From IMG/VR virus record IMGVR_UViG_3300022744_000036, positions 1 to 53,851 of that record: 53,851 nucleotides of DNA, one strand, 5' to 3'. Within the stretch, counting starts at the first letter, position 1. Every line of letters begins with the position of its first letter. This document shows positions 7,099-50,163 of this stretch, in pieces. The notes beneath the pieces were generated by a model that worked only from the letters and a program-made list of their open reading frames with translations, was not told the DNA's origin and made no database searches. The position numbers and the translations under genes are program-made. This DNA is from a virus.

Positions 7099-7110
7099 GG
7101 GCCCCTTTTT
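7087..7110 (+). terminator. Strong intrinsic terminator between converging operons
   Basis: A 20-base palindrome, AGGGGCCCCTAGGGGCCCCT, is followed by four more T residues on the plus strand. It overlaps the end of the DUF551 gene and lies at the 3' end of the minus-strand late operon. The U tract faces plus-strand transcription; on the minus strand the following sequence is less T-rich, so it probably stops mainly the early transcript. Confidence 0.85.
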
Positions 7111-10100
7111 ATTGCGGCATCGCTTTCTGCAGCTTGCGCTCCCGGTCGGCCTGTGCCTTGGGGTACTTGAGCAACGTCGACAGGGGCTGGCGCTTCATCT
7201 CCTCGGGCTGGTCGTTGAACCAGTGGCGCACGTTGTCCTTGCCATCCTGCAGCTCCTGCCAGTCCTGGCGCAGCTTGGCGGCCTTCTCGTAGTCGTCGGC
7301 CTTCATCGCCTCCGCGTAGCGGTGCTCGATGTCCTTGGTGCGCTCCTGGTAGAACTGCCGGACCTCGTACTGCTGGCTGCGCAGCCACTCCATGTTCTTG
7401 AACGAGGTGCTCTTGAGACCAACCGCGTCGAGCGCCAGGGCAAACTCGTTGACGTCATCCGGCTTGACCATCACGTCGCCGTTCTTGAGCGTGTAGCCCT
7501 CGTTGGCGATGCGGGCAGCCTTCATGGCGTCGGCCGGGCCCTTGGGCATGAGCTGCTCGACCCCACGGTAGAAGTCCCCACGTTTGAAGTAGCCGACTCC
7601 TTCGGCGAACCGGCCGGCCTGCGACAGCGTAGGGCCACCCAGAATACCGCCCAGAGTCTGGGCCATCTCGCTGGCGCTGCCGAACTTGAAGTCGGTGTAG
7701 GGCGCGATGCTGAACACCTTGTCGTCACCCAGCTTGGAGGACATATCCAGGCCCACCATGTTGAGCGGGCCGTGCAGGAGCAAGTCAGCCACGAACGGGT
7801 CGCCGATCCACTCGCGCATCTGGCGCTCAGTGCTCCACGGCTCATCGTCGCCGCCGAACAGGGCGCCCATCACCAGGCCCACCAGGTTCATCGCGGGCAG
7901 GCCCAGCACGCCGGCCGCCATCGAGGTGTGGAACAGCTTGAACGCCAGCATGCGCTTGCCGATGGCCCGCTCCTCGGGGGTTGCGCCCGTGAACGCCTGC
8001 TTGAACGCCCGGGTGTAGAGCGCCGCCATCATGAACTGGTACTTGCGGTACTGCGTCATGACCTTGGGCAGGCGCTTGAGGAGCAGGGGTGCGCCCGTGC
8101 GCGAGAAGTCGCCCTGCGTGGTCTGCAGGATCCGCACTGCGTATTCCTGGGCGGCCTCTTCCGTGCGCCCCTTGGCGATCGCCATGTTGTAGGCCGCCGT
8201 AGCCGCAGCCACGCGGTTGGCCGTCTCCACCGCACGCGAGACCTGGCGCAGCTTGTGCAGCGCGGTGCGCACGCCCTTGGACGCCGCGTCCACCGGGGCG
8301 TAGCCCGTGCGGGTCGCCTCGAAGTGGGTGAGGTCCTCGTCCAGGCCAATGTCCAGCACGCCCATGTCAGCCGCGCGCTGCAGGGCACCACGCAGGCCCG
8401 GGTTCTTCACCCGCTCAAGCTGCAGCTGACCCCACACCCCGGTGTCCTTGAGGGCCTTGTAGCCGTCAGACAGGTGCTTCCACGCTCCGGAGTAGTCGCC
8501 GAAGTCTGCCGCCAGCTTGGGCAGCGTGACCATGAACCCCTGCGTCGCGTTGGCGACGTGGTAGCCCAGGCTGGTCAGCAGCTGCCAGGCCGACGTGAGG
8601 GCCATCGCCCGGTCGGTCCAAGGGGTCTCCTTGTACGACAGGTTCTCGCGGTAGTGGTCCGCGATGGCGTTGAACTCGTTCTGGTGCTCGCGCTTGCCCG
8701 TCAGCGGGTTGCGCGCCTCGCGCTGCATGCGGTAGAACGCCTCGTTGATCTTGCCCCCATGCTCCAGGTTGGCCAGCCAGTTGGCATCCGCTCGCGCGTG
8801 CGAGAGGAAGGAGCGGACCATGTCACTGTCGTAGCCCGCGCGGTTCATGCGCTTGAGCGTCGAGGTGCGGGCGTGGTGCTCGTCGATCGACTGGAAGTAC
8901 ATGTCCTGCACCATCTTGGTCAGGGCTTCCTTGGTGGCCTTTGGCATCGCCTCATCCGCACCCATGGCGGCCAGCAGGCGCTGCAGCGTCGCGTGCTTCG
9001 GGGCCATCGAGTCCGCCAGCTCAGCGGACTTCTCGAAGTGATCGGACCAGTCGAAGCCGCCGCCACCGGCCTTCGAGTTCTTCTCGGCGAACAGGGCGGC
9101 CTGACCGGGCGTGTCGAAGTACGACACCACGTAGTGGTTCGGGTCCTGCTTGAGGGCCTTGACCCGGCTGGCGTCGTCGGCCTGCTCGGCGTCCCGCAGC
9201 TCCTTGGACTTGAGCACCGCCACGTAGTCGCCGAAGCGCTTGAGGGGGGCGTAGGGCTTGCCGTCCGAGCCGGCACCCATGCTGGTGAGCTGGTCCACAT
9301 CGTCGAGCTTGAGGGCCTTCATCAGGCCCCGCTTGACCTTGAGCATCTTCTGCCCATGGGCGAACACGTCGCGCACCACTTGCTGCTCCTCGGGCTTGAG
9401 CAGGTTGAAGTCGCGCTGCAACGTCGGGTCCACCTCGTACTTGACGGGCTCGCCGGCCTTGTCCTCGGCGGGGAACAGGTCCTTGTGCTGCGGATCCAGG
9501 GACGGGTCGTAGCCCCACTTCTGCTGGAAGGTGGACTTGGACAGGAACTCGTTGACGTTCTGCGTCCCGCCAGGCAAACGCTCGGCAGCGGCAGCGACGC
9601 GCTCGGCGTCCTGCTTGAGCTTGTTGCGGGTAGCCTGGACATCCTGCACGCCCTTGTACCAGTCCTTGATGGAGGGCAGGCTGCCCTTGAGGTCATCCAC
9701 CAGGTCGTGCAGGAACGACAGCGAGTCGGCCAGTCGCCGTGCCGTGTGGGTCACGTCGGTTACCACCTGGGACCCCGTGGCTCCCGCCACTCGGCGGGCC
9801 GCAGCGGACACCGGGCTCGGGATGGGCCCGGCGTCGGGCTCGACAGAGAAGCGAATGTCGGGGTTGGGGCCGGTCGCGCCCTCTCCCGCGTAGCTGTACT
9901 TGCTCTCCGTAGAGCCGCCCCGGGTGTCTTCCCCGAGCTGGAAGTGGGCGGCGCCGTAGGCCATGTCCACCACGTCCTGGGCGGTCAGGCGCACCGTGCT
10001 GCCAAGCCTCAGCTTGGCCAGGCCCTTCTTGAGGGCGGCGACCAGGGTGCTCATCCAGCGCTCGACGTTCGTGCGGTACTTCATGGCCGTGGGGTCCACC

Positions 10101-13100
10101 CCGGCACGCACCGCCTCCTCGACGAAGTAGGCCGCCAGCTCCGAGCGCTTCTGCTCGTCGAGCGTACCGGCGTTGATGATCCGGGCCAGGGCCTTGCGGG
10201 CAAGACCCGCCTCCTGACTGCCGTCCGTCATCTCGGACCAGTCGAGGATCTGGTCGGTCAGGCGCTGGAACTCCTTGACGGTGAGGATCTCCTCCAGGCC
10301 CAGGTGCACGCCGGCCTCGTGCATGAGCACGGAGCGCGCGTTGCCCGGCTTTATGTTCCCAGCGATCAGGTACACCCGCCCTCCCGTCACGAACCCCTGC
10401 ACCCGCTTGGCCTTGGGGCCTTCCTTGGACAGCGACTTCTGCACGCGTGGAGGCAGCTCGGAAGCGTCCTGAACGACCACCAGGCGGGGCGACTGCAGCG
10501 CAAGACCCAGCCCCTTGAGTTCCGCCTTGACGGCATCGACCGTGCTGGACTGGCGTCCGGGGCCGGCGACCTTGGACAGCTGCGGCCGCTCCGCCGACAG
10601 CTCACCCCGGCTCATGCGGGACAGCGTATCCTTGGACAGGTGGCGGGCCGGCTCCTGGGCTACTTCGCGGGGCTCGACGTCGGTGACGTCCTGCTCTGCT
10701 CGGCTTGCAGCTCCTTGATCTGTTCGTTCAGCTTGGGGTCCACCTCCCTCCCGTTCAACTGCCTGAACTCCTGTATTAGCTTGAGTTCGTCCAGAGTTGG
10801 CAGCGGGTACTTTCGTGGGAGGGGCCTGCTTGTGGTCATTGGAAATCCTCAGTTGGAATTTGGCTAGGAGAGCGGCTTCAGTATTACCGATCTCCCCCTC
10901 ACCGGACTTCAGTTGGGTGCCGAACTCGGAAACCCAGTCCGCCTTCATGGCGTCGTGGAGATCTTCCCAACTCGGGATCACCGCACCGCCTGACTCCGCA
11001 TTGTCCACGGCTTGAGCGCGCCACTCGTCGGCCGCCATTTCGGCGAGCGGGGAGCCTAGCAAGCGTCGGATGTTTTCTGCACGCTTCGGCGCGTTCAGAG
11101 TGCGCAGGTCCGTAACGATGGCGCCTTCCGGGACTACCACCGCGTCCTCGCGCTTGGCGGGTGCGGGGCCTGCTTTCCGGAGAATGTCGTCAGCCTCCGC
11201 TGCCAGTTTGCGCTGCGCAGTGGTTGGGGCGTCACCAGTCAAATGCCCGTCTCCGGCGGCGGCCCCCAGAGTGTCCTCCACCCGGAATCCGGGGGCGTCA
11301 CCGGCCTCCACGTTGTCCAGGCCCAGCTCGCTGGCGTTGATGGCGTCGGGGCTAACGGCGCTGGCCAGCGCCACGCGCTCGTCGATGCCGAAGTCCTTGA
11401 GCGACGAGGTGATCGCCTGACGGGTCACTTTCTTGCCCGTGCGCTCGCTCTCGACCCGCGCGATCTCCGCAAACGGCATGGGGTCGCGGCCCTCGACCAG
11501 GATCGGGGCGCCCGTGTCCGGGTCTTCCGTGATGTCCCAGCCGGTGGCCAGCAGGATGCGGGACTTCTGCAGTGGGGTGGCGTGCAGGATCTTGTCCGAT
11601 ACCTGCTGGGCGGTCACCGCGCGCTCCCGGCCGGAGCGTCCCACAGTCGTCGTCTTGTTGGGGTCGATGCCGGCTACTGCAGGGGCGACGCCACTTCCAC
11701 CTGGTACAGCCACACCCGCTGCGCGGCTTGCTCCAGGTGCCGGGGTATCGACAGCACCATCAACTCGCTGGCCGGCAACGACAGGTACAGATCCTGCAGC
11801 TCGCTCGCCTCGTAGGGGAGCAACACCCGGTTGTCCACCAGTTCCTTGAGCCACGGGTTGAGCTTGGCCGGTTGTGCGGACATCTGCGGCTCCTTGAGTC
11901 GTGACGGGGGTGATGGGCTTGGCATCCGCCTCGGCTTGCAGGCGAGTGTGCTCGGCCTTGGCGTCGATGAACTTGCGCACGGAGGCGAACCGGCGGGTCT
12001 TGAGTTCCCCGATGCTCTCGGCGTAATCGCCGTCCTGAATCTGGCCGGACTCGTGCAGCGCCTTGAGTTCGCCGAACAGCCCAACGGCCTTGTCGCCCTG
12101 AAGCCCGAAACCGGCGGCCTCGGCGCGCAGCGCCTCAATCCGTGCGGCGTGCTCGTCAGCCTGACGCTTGATCTCGTCCTGACGGGCCTTGTTCGCCAGC
12201 CACACCTGGCGGGCCATGGCGGCCCCCGGGTCGGTCATGTTCTCGGTATCGACGGGGTTGCCCGTCAGGTTGCCGAAGGAATCCGCGTGGACCGTGTCAC
12301 CCTGGAGGTTGACGGCGGGCATCTGCAAGGTCGGGGCGACGGCGCCCTCAACGCGAGGGTCCACCGGGCGGCCATCGCCAGCATACGGGCGCGGATCGTC
12401 GATAGCCAGGGTCAGGCCGGACGTATCGATGGCGGGGATCTGTGTACCCGACGGGCGCCCCTGCGGCAGCTCCTGTTGGGGACCGACCACATCGAGGCCG
12501 CGCGGAATCGCAGTCACACCCTCAAAGCCCTGGGTAGTAGTCCACTCGGGAGTCAGATCGCCAAGCGCCGGGTCATACGCCCGGTTCGGGATGGGGGCCT
12601 GCAGCGGCGCGCCCGTGTCGACACCCTCGAAACCCTGCGCCGTGGTGAGCCCGCCGGGGTTTAGTAGGTCCTTGCCGCCCGTCTGGTCGATCGACGGCGT
12701 GGGGGCGCGACGCCCGGAGCGGATTCCGCCCGGCAGGCCCATGAGACCTTCAACCAGGCCCCCCGCCACCCCGGAGTTCAGGCGCTTGGAGAACGCATCG
12801 TCGGGGCTCACGCGGCCGTTGTAGGCCATCTCCATCTCGTTCTGGAGCAGCTCACTCGTGGCGCCGGTCGCGCCTTGCGTGGCACCGGCCTTGCCGATAC
12901 GGGTCAGCAGGTTGCCCTGGAACCCGGCGCCGTGTCCGATACGCCCGACCAGCATGGCCTCGGGCAGGGTCTCCGTGAGGGCGTAAGGCAGGCCGCCCGC
13001 CAGCGCAGCAGCGCCCGAGTTCGGATCGCCCCCTTCGACGGCTTCCTGGTACAGCGAGCCGACACCTTGGCCGTAGTTGAACGCGCCGCCGCCGACTACC

Positions 13101-13612
13101 TGCTTGGCGAAAGTCTGACCGGCCTCCAAGGCCGCGCGGCGCGCAGCAAATTCGGAGCCGCCGGTAGCCGCAGCCTCCGCCACGCGAGCGGCCATCCCGC
13201 CGCCACCAAGAGCCCTGGGGAGCAGAGCCGCCCCACGAGACAGCGCCGCCGGTACCGCCACTTCCGGGACCACGAGGCCCGCCGCAATGGCGCCGCCGAT
13301 GTTCGGAACCTGCTTGGCCACCTGGTAGGTGGCGTAAGGGAGCCACTTGCTCGGCTTGTCCCACACGTCCTCGACGCGCTCCAGGTCCGGGCGGCCGTTG
13401 AGCTGCGACTCCCGCTGGTTGCGGTCAGCCTGCTCGTTGAGCCAGTCGCGGGCACGATCGGCACCAAAGGTGTCGGCCATGGCCCCGAGCGCACTGTAGC
13501 CAAGACCCTGTAGATCGTCGGTACCGGACGACAGGCCCGCCACGAGCGCATTGCGCTCCGGGCGAGGGCCCAGGTCAAAGCTCTGGAGAATTCGACCTTC
13601 GATGACGGGCAT
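7109..13612 (-). CDS. Giant internal virion protein with PLxRFG motif and HExGxH site
   Basis: This 2167-residue protein is the last gene of the late operon, where podoviruses encode their ejection protein (T7 gp16 position). The sequence has a Gly/Ala-rich, membrane-prone N-terminus (residues about 90-250), long disordered stretches, a zincin-like VLMHEAGVHLGLEEI near residue 1097, the PLKRFG motif near residue 1454, and a C-terminal region (about 1850-1950) with YRKYQFMMAALYTRAF followed by a hydrophobic segment, resembling LPD38-type polyvalent-protein domains. PLxRFG proteins are large phage virion or polyvalent proteins thought to enter the host with DNA. The start follows AAGGAGG. The virion role is strongly suggested by position; the protease-like motif is HExGxH rather than canonical HExxH, so catalysis is uncertain. 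Confidence 0.82.
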   Translation of the reverse strand: MPVIEGRILQSFDLGPRPERNALVAGLSSGTDDLQGLGYSALGAMADTFGADRARDWLNEQADRNQRESQLNGRPDLERVEDVWDKPSKWLPYATYQVAKQVPNIGGAIAAGLVVPEVAVPAALSRGAALLPRALGGGGMAARVAEAAATGGSEFAARRAALEAGQTFAKQVVGGGAFNYGQGVGSLYQEAVEGGDPNSGAAALAGGLPYALTETLPEAMLVGRIGHGAGFQGNLLTRIGKAGATQGATGATSELLQNEMEMAYNGRVSPDDAFSKRLNSGVAGGLVEGLMGLPGGIRSGRRAPTPSIDQTGGKDLLNPGGLTTAQGFEGVDTGAPLQAPIPNRAYDPALGDLTPEWTTTQGFEGVTAIPRGLDVVGPQQELPQGRPSGTQIPAIDTSGLTLAIDDPRPYAGDGRPVDPRVEGAVAPTLQMPAVNLQGDTVHADSFGNLTGNPVDTENMTDPGAAMARQVWLANKARQDEIKRQADEHAARIEALRAEAAGFGLQGDKAVGLFGELKALHESGQIQDGDYAESIGELKTRRFASVRKFIDAKAEHTRLQAEADAKPITPVTTQGAADVRTTGQAQPVAQGTGGQPGVAPLRGERAAGSVPVVAGQRVDGAVDTPAPGASRAAGVAVPGGSGVAPAVAGIDPNKTTTVGRSGRERAVTAQQVSDKILHATPLQKSRILLATGWDITEDPDTGAPILVEGRDPMPFAEIARVESERTGKKVTRQAITSSLKDFGIDERVALASAVSPDAINASELGLDNVEAGDAPGFRVEDTLGAAAGDGHLTGDAPTTAQRKLAAEADDILRKAGPAPAKREDAVVVPEGAIVTDLRTLNAPKRAENIRRLLGSPLAEMAADEWRAQAVDNAESGGAVIPSWEDLHDAMKADWVSEFGTQLKSGEGEIGNTEAALLAKFQLRISNDHKQAPPTKVPAANSGRTQANTGVQAVEREGGGPQAERTDQGAASRAEQDVTDVEPREVAQEPARHLSKDTLSRMSRGELSAERPQLSKVAGPGRQSSTVDAVKAELKGLGLALQSPRLVVVQDASELPPRVQKSLSKEGPKAKRVQGFVTGGRVYLIAGNIKPGNARSVLMHEAGVHLGLEEILTVKEFQRLTDQILDWSEMTDGSQEAGLARKALARIINAGTLDEQKRSELAAYFVEEAVRAGVDPTAMKYRTNVERWMSTLVAALKKGLAKLRLGSTVRLTAQDVVDMAYGAAHFQLGEDTRGGSTESKYSYAGEGATGPNPDIRFSVEPDAGPIPSPVSAAARRVAGATGSQVVTDVTHTARRLADSLSFLHDLVDDLKGSLPSIKDWYKGVQDVQATRNKLKQDAERVAAAAERLPGGTQNVNEFLSKSTFQQKWGYDPSLDPQHKDLFPAEDKAGEPVKYEVDPTLQRDFNLLKPEEQQVVRDVFAHGQKMLKVKRGLMKALKLDDVDQLTSMGAGSDGKPYAPLKRFGDYVAVLKSKELRDAEQADDASRVKALKQDPNHYVVSYFDTPGQAALFAEKNSKAGGGGFDWSDHFEKSAELADSMAPKHATLQRLLAAMGADEAMPKATKEALTKMVQDMYFQSIDEHHARTSTLKRMNRAGYDSDMVRSFLSHARADANWLANLEHGGKINEAFYRMQREARNPLTGKREHQNEFNAIADHYRENLSYKETPWTDRAMALTSAWQLLTSLGYHVANATQGFMVTLPKLAADFGDYSGAWKHLSDGYKALKDTGVWGQLQLERVKNPGLRGALQRAADMGVLDIGLDEDLTHFEATRTGYAPVDAASKGVRTALHKLRQVSRAVETANRVAAATAAYNMAIAKGRTEEAAQEYAVRILQTTQGDFSRTGAPLLLKRLPKVMTQYRKYQFMMAALYTRAFKQAFTGATPEERAIGKRMLAFKLFHTSMAAGVLGLPAMNLVGLVMGALFGGDDEPWSTERQMREWIGDPFVADLLLHGPLNMVGLDMSSKLGDDKVFSIAPYTDFKFGSASEMAQTLGGILGGPTLSQAGRFAEGVGYFKRGDFYRGVEQLMPKGPADAMKAARIANEGYTLKNGDVMVKPDDVNEFALALDAVGLKSTSFKNMEWLRSQQYEVRQFYQERTKDIEHRYAEAMKADDYEKAAKLRQDWQELQDGKDNVRHWFNDQPEEMKRQPLSTLLKYPKAQADRERKLQKAMPQ

Positions 13613-13624
13613 GGGCCGCCCTCC

Positions 13625-15271
13625 TTATCGTGCGTTGGCTTGCTGGTACTGCGTGATCCTGCGGGCGATCTCGGGTACGGCACGGGGGTTGTTGCGCTGG
13701 GCCGCGCGGTACTCAGCCCACAAGGCATACAGGGCCGGGTCACGGCTGGCCGTGGCTGCTGCCGCTTCTGCGGCGCGCTTGGCGGGAAGGGCGACCTGCC
13801 GCGCCTCTTGTCCGCTGCGCTCATAGAGCGACCGGGCGTCCGTCAGGGCGGGTGCGGGGGGCGCGGTCGACGCCCCACTCGGCAGGTCCCCGGTCTTTGC
13901 CGGAGCCTTGGCTTTGGCCGCTTCCGCTGCGGTCGAGTACGTCTGCCCGTCGCCCCCAACAAACCCGAGCTTCACGCCGCTGTCGGTCTCGACGTTCACC
14001 AGCTCCACACCCACGTCCTGCGCCTGCTTGCGGTAGGACTCCAGGGTCGTCGACGTCATGCCCAGCGGGATGGCGAAACCATTGTAGGTGTTGTAGAGCG
14101 CCCGACCGCCGTCCTTGGAGAACGCGGTGTACGTGCCGTCGTCGTTCTTCTTCTGCTCCACCGGCAGGTCCAGCAGCTTCTTGGCCCCGGAGCCCCCCGT
14201 CGCCGGACGGCCGAGGTTGATCTGCCCGCCGTTGCGGACGTTGAGCATGTTGAAGCGTGTAAGCAGACCGCGCCCCTCGTCCCCCTGCTGCTGGGCGGGG
14301 GTGAGCTTGTCCCACTGAGCCTGGAGTTGAACCGCTTCCTCGCGGCGCCCTTGCGCATCGCGGATGTCCTGCAGCTGCGCGTTCTTGAGGTCGCGCGTGG
14401 TGTTGGCGTTCATCATTGCCGCGCCGGCTTGCGTCTGGTGCGCGCGGGCCGTAATGAGCCCGTTCTGGTCCTGGGCAGCGTCGTGGGTCGCCGTATTGTT
14501 GCCCTTGGCCAGCGCTTCTTGCACCTTGTTCCACTCGCCAATGTGGCCGGCGATGTCCTTGTGCGCAGCCTGGAGCGTCGCCATGGCGTCCGCACCGAAG
14601 CCAGCCTCGCCGTAAGCGTGGGCCAGCGCAACCTGGCGCAGCTGAGCTTCGTTGAGCGTGAACTGCGACCCCGCGATGGGGGTCTTGCCATCCGCCTCGG
14701 TCTTGAGGAAGGTGTAGCCGTTCTTGTCCTTGCCCGTGTAGAGCATCGGGTAGCCGCTCAGGTTGATGTCGGCCGCCTGCCGCTCCAGGTCCTTGAGCGA
14801 GGTCTTCATGACCGAGGCCGCCACCGCGTCCTTGCGCTGGGCCTTGGCTTCGGCTTCCAGGGTGGTCAGGGCGTTGGGGTCCCGCATCGCCACGGCGATG
14901 TTTTGACGGGCTGCAAGCAGCTCGGCCGGGGAGGCCGTGCGTTGCACCAGAGGGGCACGCGTTCCATCCGGAAGCTGTAGCCCGGTGGGCTGTGCCTGTT
15001 GGCTGGCGGGGACCGGGCCCAGGCCGCCAGGGGCCGACACGGACGTGCCGAAGTCCACCTTGGAGCCGTCGACCACGCCGCCTTGCAGCGCCGAGTAGTT
15101 CTTGAAGGCCGCGTCCTGGCTTTGACGATCGTTCTGCCGCCAGCTGAATTCGGCCTGCCGCTGGGCCGCCTCTTGCTCGCGCATGGCCATCTCTCGCTGG
15201 CGCAGCTTCTGGTCCTCCGCAGAGTCCCAGGCGTCCATGCCGAATTTCAGGCCGGTCTGAAAAGCACCCAT
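13625..15271 (-). CDS. Internal virion protein, gp15-like position, 548 aa
   Basis: No conserved family is recognised. The N-terminus is a long Gln/Arg/Glu-rich helix (QKLRQREMAMREQEAAQRQA), the middle is helical and Ala/Gln-rich, and the C-terminus is Ala-rich (RAAEAAAATASRDP-like composition). It lies between the gp14-like and gp16-like proteins, which matches T7 gp15, a component of the ejected DNA-translocating channel. The gene is tightly packed, with 9 to 12 bases to its neighbours. The call rests on gene order and composition. Confidence 0.65.
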   Translation of the reverse strand: MGAFQTGLKFGMDAWDSAEDQKLRQREMAMREQEAAQRQAEFSWRQNDRQSQDAAFKNYSALQGGVVDGSKVDFGTSVSAPGGLGPVPASQQAQPTGLQLPDGTRAPLVQRTASPAELLAARQNIAVAMRDPNALTTLEAEAKAQRKDAVAASVMKTSLKDLERQAADINLSGYPMLYTGKDKNGYTFLKTEADGKTPIAGSQFTLNEAQLRQVALAHAYGEAGFGADAMATLQAAHKDIAGHIGEWNKVQEALAKGNNTATHDAAQDQNGLITARAHQTQAGAAMMNANTTRDLKNAQLQDIRDAQGRREEAVQLQAQWDKLTPAQQQGDEGRGLLTRFNMLNVRNGGQINLGRPATGGSGAKKLLDLPVEQKKNDDGTYTAFSKDGGRALYNTYNGFAIPLGMTSTTLESYRKQAQDVGVELVNVETDSGVKLGFVGGDGQTYSTAAEAAKAKAPAKTGDLPSGASTAPPAPALTDARSLYERSGQEARQVALPAKRAAEAAAATASRDPALYALWAEYRAAQRNNPRAVPEIARRITQYQQANAR

Positions 15272-38783: not shown

Positions 38784-40688
38784 ATGACGTTCTATCCTCC
38801 CCCCAACGCGGTGCCGGTGCGCGAGCGCACGCTGGCGTCCCATCCGGGACCGTCCTTCTGGTCGTACTCGGAGCATGGCGAGTACCTCTGCGTCGCGGTT
38901 GTCCCCCGCGAGGCGCAGACGGTTGTCGGCATCCCTGGCAGCCCCGCCGATTACTGGAAGCCGATCTACGCGGGCAACACCACCCACTACGCTGCTGCGT
39001 GCGCGGCTGCTGACGAGCACAGCGGCCTGCGCGGCCCCGGCGAACCCCGGCAGCTGGTCTACCTCAACATCTACGACCGCGACGGCCTGGGCGAATACAC
39101 CTACTACGACGCCGCCCGGACCGGGGCCCCGTCCATCCGCCTGGTGCGGGCGTGGGCTATAACCGCTCTCCGTTCGACCTTCCCGGGCGTCGGCCTCCGC
39201 GCACGGTTGCGCACGATCATCGAGGGTGGCGGCTTGGGCACTCCCCGCATCGGCCCGGTGCAATACCGCAACGTCATGGACGCCCGCAGCGCCATCGGCA
39301 CCTCGCTGTCCGACTGGATCAAGGAGTACCGGGACGCGGACGACAGCGAGGGCGCCAAGGAGGCCCTCCTGGAAACCCTGGTGTCCCTGGAAACCCAGCT
39401 CAACTGCCTCGACAAGGACCGAGACGAGATGAACGACCTGGCACGCACCGTGGCGAACAAGGTGGGCCTGCAGACCTGGGAGTGCCCGGTGTACTGTCAC
39501 TGCTGGCACTGGGAGATCAGCGACCGCACAACGTCGGTCGGGTCCCGGCCGGTCACCCGCTGGTGCTGGGACTGCGTGGGTAACCGGGCCGTGTGGGTCG
39601 AGGGGGAAGACCGCTACTACCCTGCCAGCGACGTGTACTTCTGGGACAGCGACGGCGAGTACCACCTGAACCCCGAGGAGGAGGAGGAGGAGGAGGAGGA
39701 GGAGGAGGAGGACAGCGACAACCCCGACCGCCTGCTGGACTACGGCGAAGACGCGCTGAGCCACCTCAGCATCGACAAGAGCGTGCACACGGCCCCCGAT
39801 GGCGACTTCCTGATGGGCATCGAGCTGGAGATGCAGCTGCCGGGAGAACCCAACCGCTACATTGAGGAGATGCGCGACAAGCTGCGTGGCCTGCACAGCA
39901 CGACGGCCGACCCGTGCAGCCACTACGCGGTGTTCAAGTACGACAGAAGTCTACCCACGTGTGGGGCCGAGATGGTCACCAGGCCCACCAGCCTGCTGCG
40001 CCATCATGCGGTCCTGCGCAAGTGGAGCGCCCCGAGCGGTACCTCGGCCTGGGACAACGGCCGGTGCGGTATGCATGTGCACATCGACAGCCGCGCGTTC
40101 ACGCCGCTGAGCCTGGGCAAGTTCGTGACGTTCATCAACCGCAGCGAGAACGCTGAGCTGATCCGCATGGTGGCGGGGCGTCACCCGGCGCAAGACCACC
40201 AGGCTGCGTCCTACTGCCAGGCCCTGGGGTACGAGTGCCTCACCACGCCAGCCAAGGCCAAGAACGGGGACACCGAGCGCCACCGCATGGTGAACCTGGA
40301 GAACCTCAAGCCCGGCGACTGCGAGCGGCTGCAAGTGAACCCAATGCGCTTCGGCGATGCCGGGACCGTGGAGCTGCGGATCTTCCGGGCGTCCCTCAAT
40401 AAGGAGCGCCTGCTGGCCCAGCTGGAGTTCACCCACGCCTCCGTGGTGTTCTGCCGCGACGCAAGCTGGAACGGGCTGACCGAGAAGGCGTTCGTCGACT
40501 GGCTCAAGCGCCCCGAGAACGCGCGCACCTACCCGGCCCTGGCCCTGTGGGTGGGGGCCCGCATCCGCCGGCCCCGCCGTGACATCCCCGCCCCGACACC
40601 CGAGCCCGCCACCGAGGAGAACACCAGCACGGCGCAGGCTTGGGCCGTGACGGCCACTGCAGACGACCGCTTCGCCCTCGCGGCTTGA
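38784..40688 (+). CDS. Amidoligase-family enzyme with Glu12 tract and Cys-rich segment
   Basis: The C-terminal part has the signature of the predicted COOH-NH2 ligase family related to glutamate-cysteine ligase and glutamine synthetase: MGIELEMQLPGE (near residue 344), CGAEMVTRPTS, CGMHVHIDSRAF (about 428-439) and RFGDAGTVELRIFRAS (about 522). These enzymes join carboxyl and amine groups with ATP. The N-terminal half is unfamiliar; it has a Cys/His-rich CPVYCHCWHW...CWDC segment near residue 235, and residues 298-309 are twelve Glu encoded by GAG repeats. The adjacent GATase gene could supply ammonia or process the product. No ribosome-binding site is evident; the leader is CTAACTGACTCACTCACACC. 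Substrate is unknown. Confidence 0.78.
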   Translation: MTFYPPPNAVPVRERTLASHPGPSFWSYSEHGEYLCVAVVPREAQTVVGIPGSPADYWKPIYAGNTTHYAAACAAADEHSGLRGPGEPRQLVYLNIYDRDGLGEYTYYDAARTGAPSIRLVRAWAITALRSTFPGVGLRARLRTIIEGGGLGTPRIGPVQYRNVMDARSAIGTSLSDWIKEYRDADDSEGAKEALLETLVSLETQLNCLDKDRDEMNDLARTVANKVGLQTWECPVYCHCWHWEISDRTTSVGSRPVTRWCWDCVGNRAVWVEGEDRYYPASDVYFWDSDGEYHLNPEEEEEEEEEEEEDSDNPDRLLDYGEDALSHLSIDKSVHTAPDGDFLMGIELEMQLPGEPNRYIEEMRDKLRGLHSTTADPCSHYAVFKYDRSLPTCGAEMVTRPTSLLRHHAVLRKWSAPSGTSAWDNGRCGMHVHIDSRAFTPLSLGKFVTFINRSENAELIRMVAGRHPAQDHQAASYCQALGYECLTTPAKAKNGDTERHRMVNLENLKPGDCERLQVNPMRFGDAGTVELRIFRASLNKERLLAQLEFTHASVVFCRDASWNGLTEKAFVDWLKRPENARTYPALALWVGARIRRPRRDIPAPTPEPATEENTSTAQAWAVTATADDRFALAA

Positions 40689-40713
40689 CACAATAACGTG
40701 TTAGCCTGCAAAC
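40685..40713 (+). promoter_or_regulatory. Promoter-like TTGACA with TAACGTGTTAG dyad before the GATase gene
   Basis: TTGACA (40685-40690) overlaps the amidoligase stop codon. ATAACGTGTTAG follows at 40693-40704 with the same 2-bp and 3-bp flanks as the 1531 promoter. The -10 (GCAAAC or CAAACT) is poor, so the site may need activation or be weak. Confidence 0.6.
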
Positions 40714-40744
40714 TACCATCAACTCACTCAATTAGGACAACATC

Positions 40745-41830
40745 ATGTGTCTGCTTTTCACTGGCCAATCCAACACCGTGCGTAGCACGTTCCTCACCAC
40801 TGCCGGCCTCATCGAGAGCATGTTTGACCAGAGCCCTGACGGCCTGGGCTTCATGTTCGCCGACGCCGGCCAGCTGGTGATCCACAAGGAGCTGCCGCAG
40901 TCGGTGGCCGACGTGCGCCGCATGTTCGAGGCCCTGCCTGACGACGACCGCCTGCTGGCCGGGCACGCCCGGATGCGCACCCACGGTGACATCAACCTGG
41001 ACAGCTGCCACCCCTACGTCATCTACGAGGGCCACGCCCTGATGCACAACGGCGTGCTGTCCACCGGCAACCGCAAGGACAAGACCAAGTCCGACACCTG
41101 GCACTTCATCGAGGACCACCTCAAACTGTGCAGCGCCGACTCCCTGCATGACAGGGGGGTGGCGGCCATGCTGGGCCGATGGATCGGCGGGAACCGCTTC
41201 GCCATCATGAGCGCCGACGGTCGCCTGACCGTGGTCAACGAGCACCAGGGCGTCGAGGCCGCCGGGGTGTGGTTCAGCAATACCTACGCCTGGGACCCCG
41301 CGCTCCTGATCCCCTCGTACAAGTCGTACACCAAGTACGGCGGCTACATGCTCGAAGACGAGGAGGATTCGGTCGGCCAGACGGCCCACGCCGGGGGCGC
41401 ATGGCGGACGGGCGCGCTGCGCAGCACTCATCAGGGCGGGCGGTTCGACGAGCTGGCGCTCGACGTGGCGCTGGAGCAGAACGAGCCCGATGAGCTGGCC
41501 GAGATCCTGTACCTGCACCCCCGCTCCGCTGTCGAGTACCTGCTGGACGTGTACGACTGGGAGCGGTACCGCACCATCAACAGCTCGGATCTGACCCGGC
41601 GCGACCGTGCCTGGACGGAGAAGATGATCCGTGGCCGCAAGGCCGACATCATCAACGGGCTGCGCTCCAACGTCAACGCGAGCACCAACCTCGCCGAGGC
41701 GCTGGTGTACTACATGGAGTGGACGCCGAAGAAGGCCGTCGCCTTCACGCCCGACACAGAGGCCGTCGAGTCCGACTGGGACGACGTGGGCAGCGAGTTC
41801 GACAAGCCCACCCTGAGCCTGGTGCGGTAA
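40745..41830 (+). CDS. Class II glutamine amidotransferase, 361 aa
   Basis: This is an Ntn-hydrolase of the YafJ/GATase II type. Cys2 (after removal of Met from MCLLFTG) is the expected nucleophile; PDGLGFMFAD, LAGHARMRTHGDINLDSCHP and ALMHNGVLSTGNR carry the substrate-binding residues. It would release ammonia from glutamine or hydrolyse a related amide. The C-terminal 150 residues are helical and unknown. It directly follows an amidoligase gene, a pairing known from predicted amidoligase operons. TTAGGACAACATC precedes the ATG, in a leader with the AACTCACTCA element. The partner and target are inferred. Confidence 0.85.
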   Translation: MCLLFTGQSNTVRSTFLTTAGLIESMFDQSPDGLGFMFADAGQLVIHKELPQSVADVRRMFEALPDDDRLLAGHARMRTHGDINLDSCHPYVIYEGHALMHNGVLSTGNRKDKTKSDTWHFIEDHLKLCSADSLHDRGVAAMLGRWIGGNRFAIMSADGRLTVVNEHQGVEAAGVWFSNTYAWDPALLIPSYKSYTKYGGYMLEDEEDSVGQTAHAGGAWRTGALRSTHQGGRFDELALDVALEQNEPDELAEILYLHPRSAVEYLLDVYDWERYRTINSSDLTRRDRAWTEKMIRGRKADIINGLRSNVNASTNLAEALVYYMEWTPKKAVAFTPDTEAVESDWDDVGSEFDKPTLSLVR

Positions 41831-42503: not shown

Positions 42504-42676
42504 TCGTCCCGACCAACCCCACCCGACAACCCACCCAGCGCGATCTGCTGCTGGCCATCCTGAACATGCTGGACTCGCAGGCCGAGCGCATCAAGCGCAC
42601 CGAGACGCGGGTGTGCAAGCTCGCAGCCCACATGGGCATCGACGTCAAGACCCCCACCCGAGGAGAGCCGTCGTGA
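42500..42676 (+). CDS. Small helical early protein, 58 aa
   Basis: The gene starts with GTG overlapping the stop of the wHTH gene (GTGA) and ends overlapping the GTG of the DUF2591 gene. The product is one amphipathic helix (RDLLLAILNMLDSQAERIKR) with short basic tails and one Cys. Translational coupling on both sides supports a real gene. Its function is unknown. Confidence 0.65.
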   Translation: MIVPTNPTRQPTQRDLLLAILNMLDSQAERIKRTETRVCKLAAHMGIDVKTPTRGEPS

Positions 42677-43155
42677 AAATCAAGACCAACGAACTGATTG
42701 GGCCCGCCCTTGACTGGGCGGTGGCGAAATGCGAGGGGTACAACCCCGGCGTCATCACCGTGGAGGAGATGGTACAGGAGCAGCTTGAGGCGGAGCGACA
42801 GCACGCTAACCGGGCGGACGTCCTGGAGTACCTGAACACGGTGTTCAGGGCGGCCTGTACGCCGAAGCTGTGTAACGTCGATCCGGACGGCTTCAAGGCT
42901 GTGTATGTGGTGCACTACGGCGGCAGGTCGTGGCCCCTTGCGTTCTCCACCGACTGGGCCCAGGGCGGACCGATCCTTGATCGGGAGCTGATCGATGTGT
43001 ATACCCAGTACCCGTGCTCAGGTCCCGTAGTCTGGTATGGGCGGCACAAAGGACGCATCAAAGGGGTGGGCCCCACCGCACTGATTGCAGCAATGCGTTG
43101 CTTCGTCTCATACAAACTCGGCGATGCAGTCGAGGTGCCGGAGGAGCTGCTGTGA
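42673..43155 (+). CDS. DUF2591 (NinX-like) phage protein, 160 aa
   Basis: The sequence has the DUF2591 features: MKIKTNELIGPALDWAVAKC at the start, STDWAQGGPILDRELIDV in the centre and GPTALIAAMRCFVSYKLGDA near the end. These proteins occur in the early regions of many phages; their function is unknown. GTG start overlapping the preceding stop, preceded by CGAGGAGAGCC. The C-terminus is coupled to a zinc-ribbon gene. Confidence 0.85.
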   Translation: MKIKTNELIGPALDWAVAKCEGYNPGVITVEEMVQEQLEAERQHANRADVLEYLNTVFRAACTPKLCNVDPDGFKAVYVVHYGGRSWPLAFSTDWAQGGPILDRELIDVYTQYPCSGPVVWYGRHKGRIKGVGPTALIAAMRCFVSYKLGDAVEVPEELL

Positions 43156-49602: not shown

Positions 49603-50163
49603 ATGAGACTGACCAACTTCCACCGCGACGCCTTCATCAACCGCGCCATGGACGATGTGCCACGCAAGCACGCCGACTTCGACGAGGAGTTGCGCAATCT
49701 TGCGCTGCGCACGGTCGTCGCGCACATGCCGCCGCAAGTGGCCCAGGTGTGGTCCAGATTCCCGGACTGGATCCAGCAGGGCACGGTGTGGCTGCGGCCG
49801 TCCGACTTCGGCTGCGAGTGGCCCGGCAGCACGTTGACCAGCGCGTTGCACACACCATTCGCGGATCGTGGCGTGTTGTTGAAGTGGCTCAAGAAGCCGG
49901 AGTACGCCCCGCAGTTCAAGGCACTGTTCGACAGCCGCAACGAAGAGCGCTCACGGATCGATGCTCTTGAGAAACGCCTCCGCGCTGTGGCCTACGGCTG
50001 CACCACGCGTGCCGCGCTCGCCAAGGCGCTGCCCGAGTTCGAGAAGTACCTGCCCGCCGAGGAGGGCGGTGTCGACCGCACCGTGCCTGCCGTGGCGAAC
50101 GTGGTGGCCGACTTCGTGAAGGCGGGCTGGCCGAAGGGTCAGGCACAAATCGCAGTGCAGTGA
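49603..50163 (+). CDS. Nmad5-like protein, 186 aa
   Basis: The start (RLTNFHRDAFINRAMDDVPR, then DEELRNLALRTVVAHMPPQV) resembles the family called nucleotide modification associated domain 5, found in phages. Next come WLRPSDFGCEWPGSTLTSAL and a C-terminal helical part with CTTRAALAKALPEFEKYLP. The molecular function of this family is not established; the name reflects gene neighbourhoods. No base-modifying enzyme is visible in the window. The match is from memory of the family pattern. Confidence 0.6.
   Translation: MRLTNFHRDAFINRAMDDVPRKHADFDEELRNLALRTVVAHMPPQVAQVWSRFPDWIQQGTVWLRPSDFGCEWPGSTLTSALHTPFADRGVLLKWLKKPEYAPQFKALFDSRNEERSRIDALEKRLRAVAYGCTTRAALAKALPEFEKYLPAEEGGVDRTVPAVANVVADFVKAGWPKGQAQIAVQ

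Follow-up and report, generated by a model that had tools for sequence, protein, structure and literature searches.

We analyse here two adjacent genes on the plus strand of the virus record IMGVR_UViG_3300022744_000036, the whole 53,851-base record being called the window in the following, with all coordinates counted from its first base (Table 1). The first gene encodes a 634-residue protein of the amidoligase kind and the second a 361-residue class II glutamine amidotransferase (GATase). We propose, with a rough probability of 0.55 based on the sequences and the predicted structures, that the two proteins are the subunits of a glutamine-dependent amide synthetase with coupled amidation chemistry. 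This reading of the pair as a split amide synthetase is preferred because the pairing of the two genes is near-obligate, the active sites are intact and the amidoligase is predicted to have a fold like that of glutamine synthetase (GS). That the two genes lie side by side and carry telling motifs had been noticed in a sequence-only reading of the window, and both points are borne out: the two open reading frames are confirmed on the plus strand, the amidoligase matches its family above the curated cut-off and the GATase is recognised by profile and by fold.

Pairing of the two genes across viruses

With the GATase profile, the scan of 2.9 million viral contigs gave 221 relatives, of which the best 80 were examined, and with the amidoligase profile it gave 442 relatives, of which the best 80 were again examined. 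Scans with the single proteins gave no match, and an initial alignment of amidoligases proved too diverse for scanning, while the later alignments worked. In the GATase-seeded set an amidoligase reading frame is present directly upstream on the same strand in all the 68 loci with enough DNA, and in the amidoligase-seeded set the GATase is present downstream in all the 75 loci with enough DNA, the two sets overlapping and favouring close relatives, so that these counts are not independent. The distance between the partners is within about 220 nt in 74 of the 75 loci, the widest gap being that of L092, where the GATase lies 1,053 nt downstream of the amidoligase. The distinct pairs form 9-12 clusters, dependent on the identity threshold. 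The amidoligase-GATase pairing is near-obligate. The sequence-only reading had asked whether homologous amidoligases have a GATase nearby, and they consistently do.

A few departures were seen. In a Christensenellales phage three small genes stand between the partners; in L089:4755-7176, on a contig binned with a Nitrosotalea metagenome-assembled genome, the order is reversed (GATase-amidoligase), this contig being possibly a virus or a misbinned contig; and in a partial Microcoleus phage genome the amidoligase has no GATase nearby. Among 84,980 prokaryote species genomes only three GATase relatives were found by a pattern-based scan and, as far as such a scan reaches, the pair appears to be largely a viral system. 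In a mirror-tree comparison the distances of the two partners correlate with r of 0.94 over 26 representatives. When the conserved neighbours were surveyed for hints of the substrate, only few and weak matches were obtained, all of them to replication-type or recombination-type domains, and among the conserved neighbour families the DNA polymerase alone is also present in the window. Neither protein matches any of the PADLOC anti-phage defence models up to an E of 1.

Catalytic domains and accessory parts

The 634-residue protein matches Amidoligase_2 (PF12224) over residues 394-552 with an E of 9e-6 and 26.1 bits, the cut-off being 22, and the same family is matched by all 20 aligned relatives at an E of 0.01 or better. 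The motifs that had drawn attention to it are located at residues 345-350 (GIELEM), 428-435 (CGMHVHID) and 527-534 (GTVELRIF). An AlphaFold2 model was built with 19 relatives from viral contigs, and it is good only in the catalytic part, where most 10-residue blocks of residues 340-470 and 530-590 have an average predicted local confidence (pLDDT) of 70-94, while residues 1-165 have a pLDDT below 50 and thus no confident model. When residues 337-634 of the model are compared with known structures by VIA-align 2, the matches are YbdK with Z of 11.7 (4.3 A, 233 residues), glutamine synthetase with Z of 11.2 (3.6 A, 187 residues), plant glutamate-cysteine ligase with Z of 11.0 and PafA with Z of 10.3. 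The catalytic domain is thus predicted to have the fold of the glutamine synthetase/glutamylcysteine synthetase (GS/GCS) group, in agreement with the ATP-site fold that the sequence-only reading had expected. Direct sequence comparison sees less of this likeness: hhalign of the amidoligase profile against the single sequences of YbdK and Escherichia coli GlnA gives a low-probability match at the GMHxH stretch alone, and a search of the sequences of solved structures with the same profile gave no match.

Residues G345, E347, E349, D387, E396, G429, H431, N504, E530 and R532 of the amidoligase are invariant in all 76 distinct pairs, and H433 differs in one of them. The conserved ExE, HxH and ExR residues are of the kinds by which glutamine synthetase holds its metal and ATP, and their putative roles are carried over here from that enzyme as a whole.

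For the GATase, the Pfam scores are under the curated cut-offs (GATase_4, 18.7 against 23; GATase_6, 16.8 against 27) and the NCBIfam matches are likewise weak and under cut-off, where it should be noted that a Pfam curated cut-off is a detection threshold and not a structural definition. By contrast, the GATase profile gives a hidden Markov model match to GlmS (1xff) with an E of 3.5e-6, and Foldseek matches the model to the same structure with an E of 2.8e-6. The model, in which residues 1-193 are well defined and the linker is of low confidence, is equally close to EgtC (Z of 11.3) and to the glutaminase domain of GlmS (Z of 10.9), which we count as a tie; these structural matches cover mainly the catalytic domain and not the tail. 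The expected motifs are located at Cys2, at residues 74-81 (HARMRTHG) and at residues 101-103 (HNG), and the full class II set is present, namely the Cys after Met1, the glutamine-binding Arg and Asp (R76 and D117) and the oxyanion Asn-Gly (N102-G103). None of the 76 distinct pairs shows a change at C2, H74, R76, T79, N102 or G103, and D117 is kept in 75 of them. The profile and the predicted fold together secure the assignment of the protein as a class II glutamine amidotransferase of the N-terminal nucleophile (Ntn) type and, as judged from the alignments, the conservation of the main catalytic residues of the pair is far beyond chance.

Ahead of its catalytic domain the amidoligase has a motif CxCxH...CxxC, with the family consensus VHCDCGHYE...DTWC-SCF, which looks like a small zinc-binding module and is taken as a candidate for one. 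At least two CxnC pairs, with any CxnC counted, are present ahead of the catalytic domain in 62 of the 76 distinct homologues. The run of 12 Glu lies inside an acidic linker, and in 54 of the 76 homologues the N-terminal part contains a stretch of 20 residues with 10 or more acidic ones; judged from these sequences, the acidity of the linker is widely conserved and the exact length of the Glu run is not. The amidoligase of L066:2310-5960 has 1,217 residues, with a very long N-terminal extension that holds eight CxnC motifs; this protein was considered as an amidoligase-GATase fusion, which would have spoken for a complex of the two proteins and is rejected because the extra part is the Cys-rich extension and contains no GATase.

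The tail of the GATase is predicted to be helical, with a pLDDT mostly of 75-89. Among the best 80 viral contigs, about 57 match over nearly the whole length of the protein with about 35-38% identity, and the C-terminal tails of more distant relatives are different; by this sequence comparison the helical tail is kept in about 57 aquatic phage contigs. The N-terminal half of the amidoligase and the C-terminal part of the GATase had been called unfamiliar and unknown, respectively. The recurrence of the Cys-rich and acidic parts in the family, and of the C-terminal part in the aquatic phage group, makes them less unfamiliar than was thought.

Relation to known cassettes and weighing of the readings

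The pair is already described and is widespread in phages. In phiEco32, LUZ24 and tf the amidoligase is followed at once by a class II GATase, in the same order as in the window, and further genes of the cassette encode a COOH-NH2 ligase type 2, an ATP-grasp enzyme and a gamma-glutamyl cyclotransferase. The cassette is also present in PA11, RIO-1 and PSA-HP1 and is sited near replication genes, like the pair of the window. This larger cassette has been regarded as a putative peptidoglycan-modification module (PMC5498523, PMC6256558, PMC11945000). By hhalign, the amidoligases of the LUZ24 type and of the window family are homologous (96.5%, E of 8e-10, 182 columns), and the match between the GATases covers the core motif (87%, E of 4e-6). 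In contrast to the window proteins, the LUZ24-type amidoligases are without the Cys-rich N-terminus and their GATases bear conserved CxxC pairs at the C-terminus. Because the Cys pairs are there on the other protein, we infer that the Cys module may act for the complex as a whole and may sit on one partner or the other.

Closer in composition are MEP401 and MEP402, which are Methylophilales phages, and the Marvin-group mycobacteriophages, where the pair, already annotated, has the same gene order and strand and homologous catalytic domains and where, as in the window, neither COOH-NH2 ligase type 2 nor LUZ24-type ATP-grasp enzyme was found. The pair is named in MEP401/402 (PMC10580990), and the bare pair has been noted there and in Marvin as possibly wall-modifying or metabolic. 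The proteins of these phages are only 25-26% identical to those of the window, the helical domain at the C-terminus is missing from their GATases, and their amidoligases have Cys motifs of a different number and spacing. Outside phages, two comparable systems belong to other families than the window pair: the synthetase MurT is of the Mur-ligase type and works with a class I-like GATase, and the domain present in AsnB/LtsA is of the asparagine-synthetase type. What they share with the proposed activity is the way of working: MurT-GatD is a two-protein system for the glutamine-dependent, ATP-driven amidation of peptide carboxylates of peptidoglycan, and AsnB/LtsA makes the same amidation with a class II GATase domain (PMC3267633, PMC7920481, PMC8554201).

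Based on the reading of the pair as a two-subunit amide synthetase, Cys2 of the GATase, after removal of Met1, would release ammonia from glutamine by hydrolysis, leaving glutamate. The amidoligase, with its GS/GCS fold, would use Mg-ATP to convert a carboxylate into an acyl phosphate, which would then be condensed with the ammonia derived from the GATase to give a carboxamide. The zinc-ribbon-like module, the acidic linker and the helical tail of the GATase would probably help to recognise the substrate or to dock the subunits. That the two proteins form a complex, that ammonia passes between them and that both are made early in infection, which is probable, are all inferred parts of this scheme. 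Following the precedent of phiEco32 and LUZ24, the target would most likely be a carboxyl of a host peptidoglycan peptide or precursor; this is a weakly supported guess by analogy, the cell wall being favoured by that precedent only, which is itself a prediction. In a directed-evolution experiment, missense changes arose in both genes of one phage, at different positions in isolates FJK.R9-15 and FJK.R9-30 (PMC11450229), which fits one functional unit and is a hint rather than a proof.

Several observations weigh against this reading. The other enzymes of the larger cassette were not found in the window: the search for COOH-NH2 ligase type 2 (PF14395) is positive in LUZ24, phiEco32 and tf; the search for the RimK-like ATP-grasp enzyme, with LUZ24 gp21 as query, finds tf and phiEco32; and the search for the gamma-glutamyl cyclotransferase (GGACT, PF06094) is positive in nine control genomes, the phage cyclotransferases themselves being untried as controls. 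The three enzymes were not found in the relatives tested either and, by these searches, the window phage carries only the two-gene core of the larger cassette. The correlation of partner distances is down to 0.48 at 50% identity and is lost among the 10 representatives that diverge most, where the distances are near saturation. A ligase can use free ammonia, as glutamine synthetase does, and could in principle manage without a glutaminase of its own; the class II GATase fold is also that of gamma-glutamyl hydrolases such as EgtC. Finally, the literature found reports no activity for any member of the family.

The fold shared with EgtC leads to the foremost alternative, possible though unlikely in our estimation, that the two proteins are a ligase and a hydrolase. 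The amidoligase would link an amine to a gamma-glutamyl or other amino-acyl group, and its partner with the GATase fold would take gamma-glutamyl groups off, as with EgtA and EgtC, so that a molecule is trimmed or protected. EgtC, the Ntn hydrolase that acts in ergothioneine synthesis, shares with GlmS the best fold score for the GATase, in the tie given above, and the best match of the amidoligase, YbdK, points to the glutamate-cysteine ligases, which glutamine synthetase equals in likeness. The gamma-glutamyl cyclotransferase of the larger cassettes would also fit, and the cassette GATase has been placed under peptidoglycan degradation (PMC5498523). However, EgtC cleaves its gamma-glutamyl bond in a known pathway, and neither such a pathway nor other ergothioneine-type genes were noticed among the scanned window proteins, no search having been aimed at them; moreover, a hydrolase of the product of a ligase need not adjoin that ligase so consistently.

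The second alternative, which we also consider unlikely, keeps the same or a similar chemistry and places its target in a protein of the host or of the phage, such as RNA polymerase or a receptor, rather than in the cell wall. PafA, a protein ligase, has the fold predicted for the amidoligase, and most family members have the zinc-ribbon-like module, modules of this kind often binding proteins or nucleic acids. The title of Iyer et al. 2009 reportedly speaks of peptide modifications of proteins. On the other side, no gene of a substrate protein or tag is recognisable among the conserved neighbours in the loci examined. A bolder form, which we hold to be doubtful, is that the pair is a self-sufficient two-protein amidation machine, guided by the zinc-ribbon recognition module to a specific host protein or nucleic-acid-associated target, which would amount to a phage-specific post-translational carboxyl amidation in hundreds of aquatic phages.

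It is improbable that the pair is part of a DNA base hypermodification pathway. The window does encode a protein with the nucleotide modification associated domain Nmad5 (49603-50163, plus strand, E of 2.4e-9), but this domain was not found in 12 related pair-carrying virus records, several of which may be fragments, and no base hydroxymethylase or similar enzyme was seen among the window proteins scanned. Least probable of all is that the pair redistributes glutamine nitrogen for host metabolism, as suggested for a phage with the same kinds of genes (PMC10945688), for the near-absence from cellular genomes and the lineage-specific zinc and tail domains argue for a phage-specific substrate. 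Hosts also possess glutamine synthetase and amidotransferases already.

Genomic setting and significance

Table 1. Positions of the two genes and of their parts in the window
Feature	Coordinates	Strand	Details or basis
Amidoligase gene	38784..40688	+	634 aa; N-terminal ~230 aa, zinc-ribbon-like motif, acidic linker, catalytic domain ~337-595
Codons of the zinc-ribbon-like motif, residues C238, C240, H242, C261, C264	39495..39575	+	sequence, family consensus
Glu12 tract, residues 298-309, within the acidic linker	39675..39710	+	sequence
Catalytic domain with predicted GS/GCS fold, residues 337-595	39792..40568	+	predicted fold, conserved residues
Intergenic gap of 56 nt with AGGA ribosome-binding-like site before the GATase start	40689..40744	+	sequence
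Class II (Ntn) GATase gene	40745..41830	+	361 aa; catalytic ~1-193, linker 194-232, helical domain 233-335

No terminator-like site is present on the plus strand between the two genes. There is no clear Shine-Dalgarno sequence upstream of the ATG at 38784, and the start codon of the amidoligase is therefore uncertain. The third-position GC content is 0.90 in the amidoligase gene and 0.93 in the GATase gene, with strong codon periodicity, as expected of genuine genes of a 65% GC genome. The structural genes (terminase, portal, major head protein, internal virion proteins) are mostly on the minus strand, while those of regulation and replication (helix-turn-helix protein, NinX, HNH, dUTPase, Nmad5, DHH phosphoesterase, DNA polymerase A, helicase) are mostly on the plus strand, the pair being among the first plus-strand genes past the structural block. 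This position, on the strand of the replication genes and opposite to the structural ones, is by itself what suggests the early expression of the pair.

The terminase and the polymerase are closest to those of Pseudomonas and Rhizobium podoviruses, with 31-36% identity, and because of this likeness the host is probably a proteobacterium. The DNA polymerase is common to 10 of the 12 related virus records while the terminase is shared with only one, and because of this there seems to be recombination between the early/replication block and the block of structural genes. Note also that a NinX-family protein (PF10765, E of 1.7e-15) is encoded two genes downstream of the pair at 42613-43155 on the plus strand, and that the Nmad5 protein mentioned above has a possible tie to DNA modification or counter-restriction. 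On the minus strand, the C-terminal third of a 2,167-residue protein (7109-13612) has a DarB-like antirestriction match (phrog_10089, E of 1.6e-42), and the adjoining 548-residue open reading frame (13625-15271) has no PHROG match up to an E of 0.01.

Such pairs were predicted in phages more than 10 years ago, and annotations repeatedly give them as genes of wall modification or of auxiliary metabolism; Iyer et al. 2009 is cited (PMC10580990, PMC5498523, PMC6256558) for the prediction that a metabolite, a protein or the envelope is modified by them. To this the present analysis adds counts that show how near-obligate the pairing is, and a case in which the cassette is reduced to a core of two genes. 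It also adds that the zinc-ribbon-like and acidic parts of the amidoligase N-terminus recur in the family and that many aquatic phages, as a large group, share the tail of the GATase. With the two genes staying together across at least nine divergent lineages, the pair offers a simple system for finding the substrate. If the cell wall is the target, the pair would provide a chemical mechanism for phage-induced changes of the envelope or for superinfection exclusion, and if a protein is the target, it would represent a new modification made by phages.

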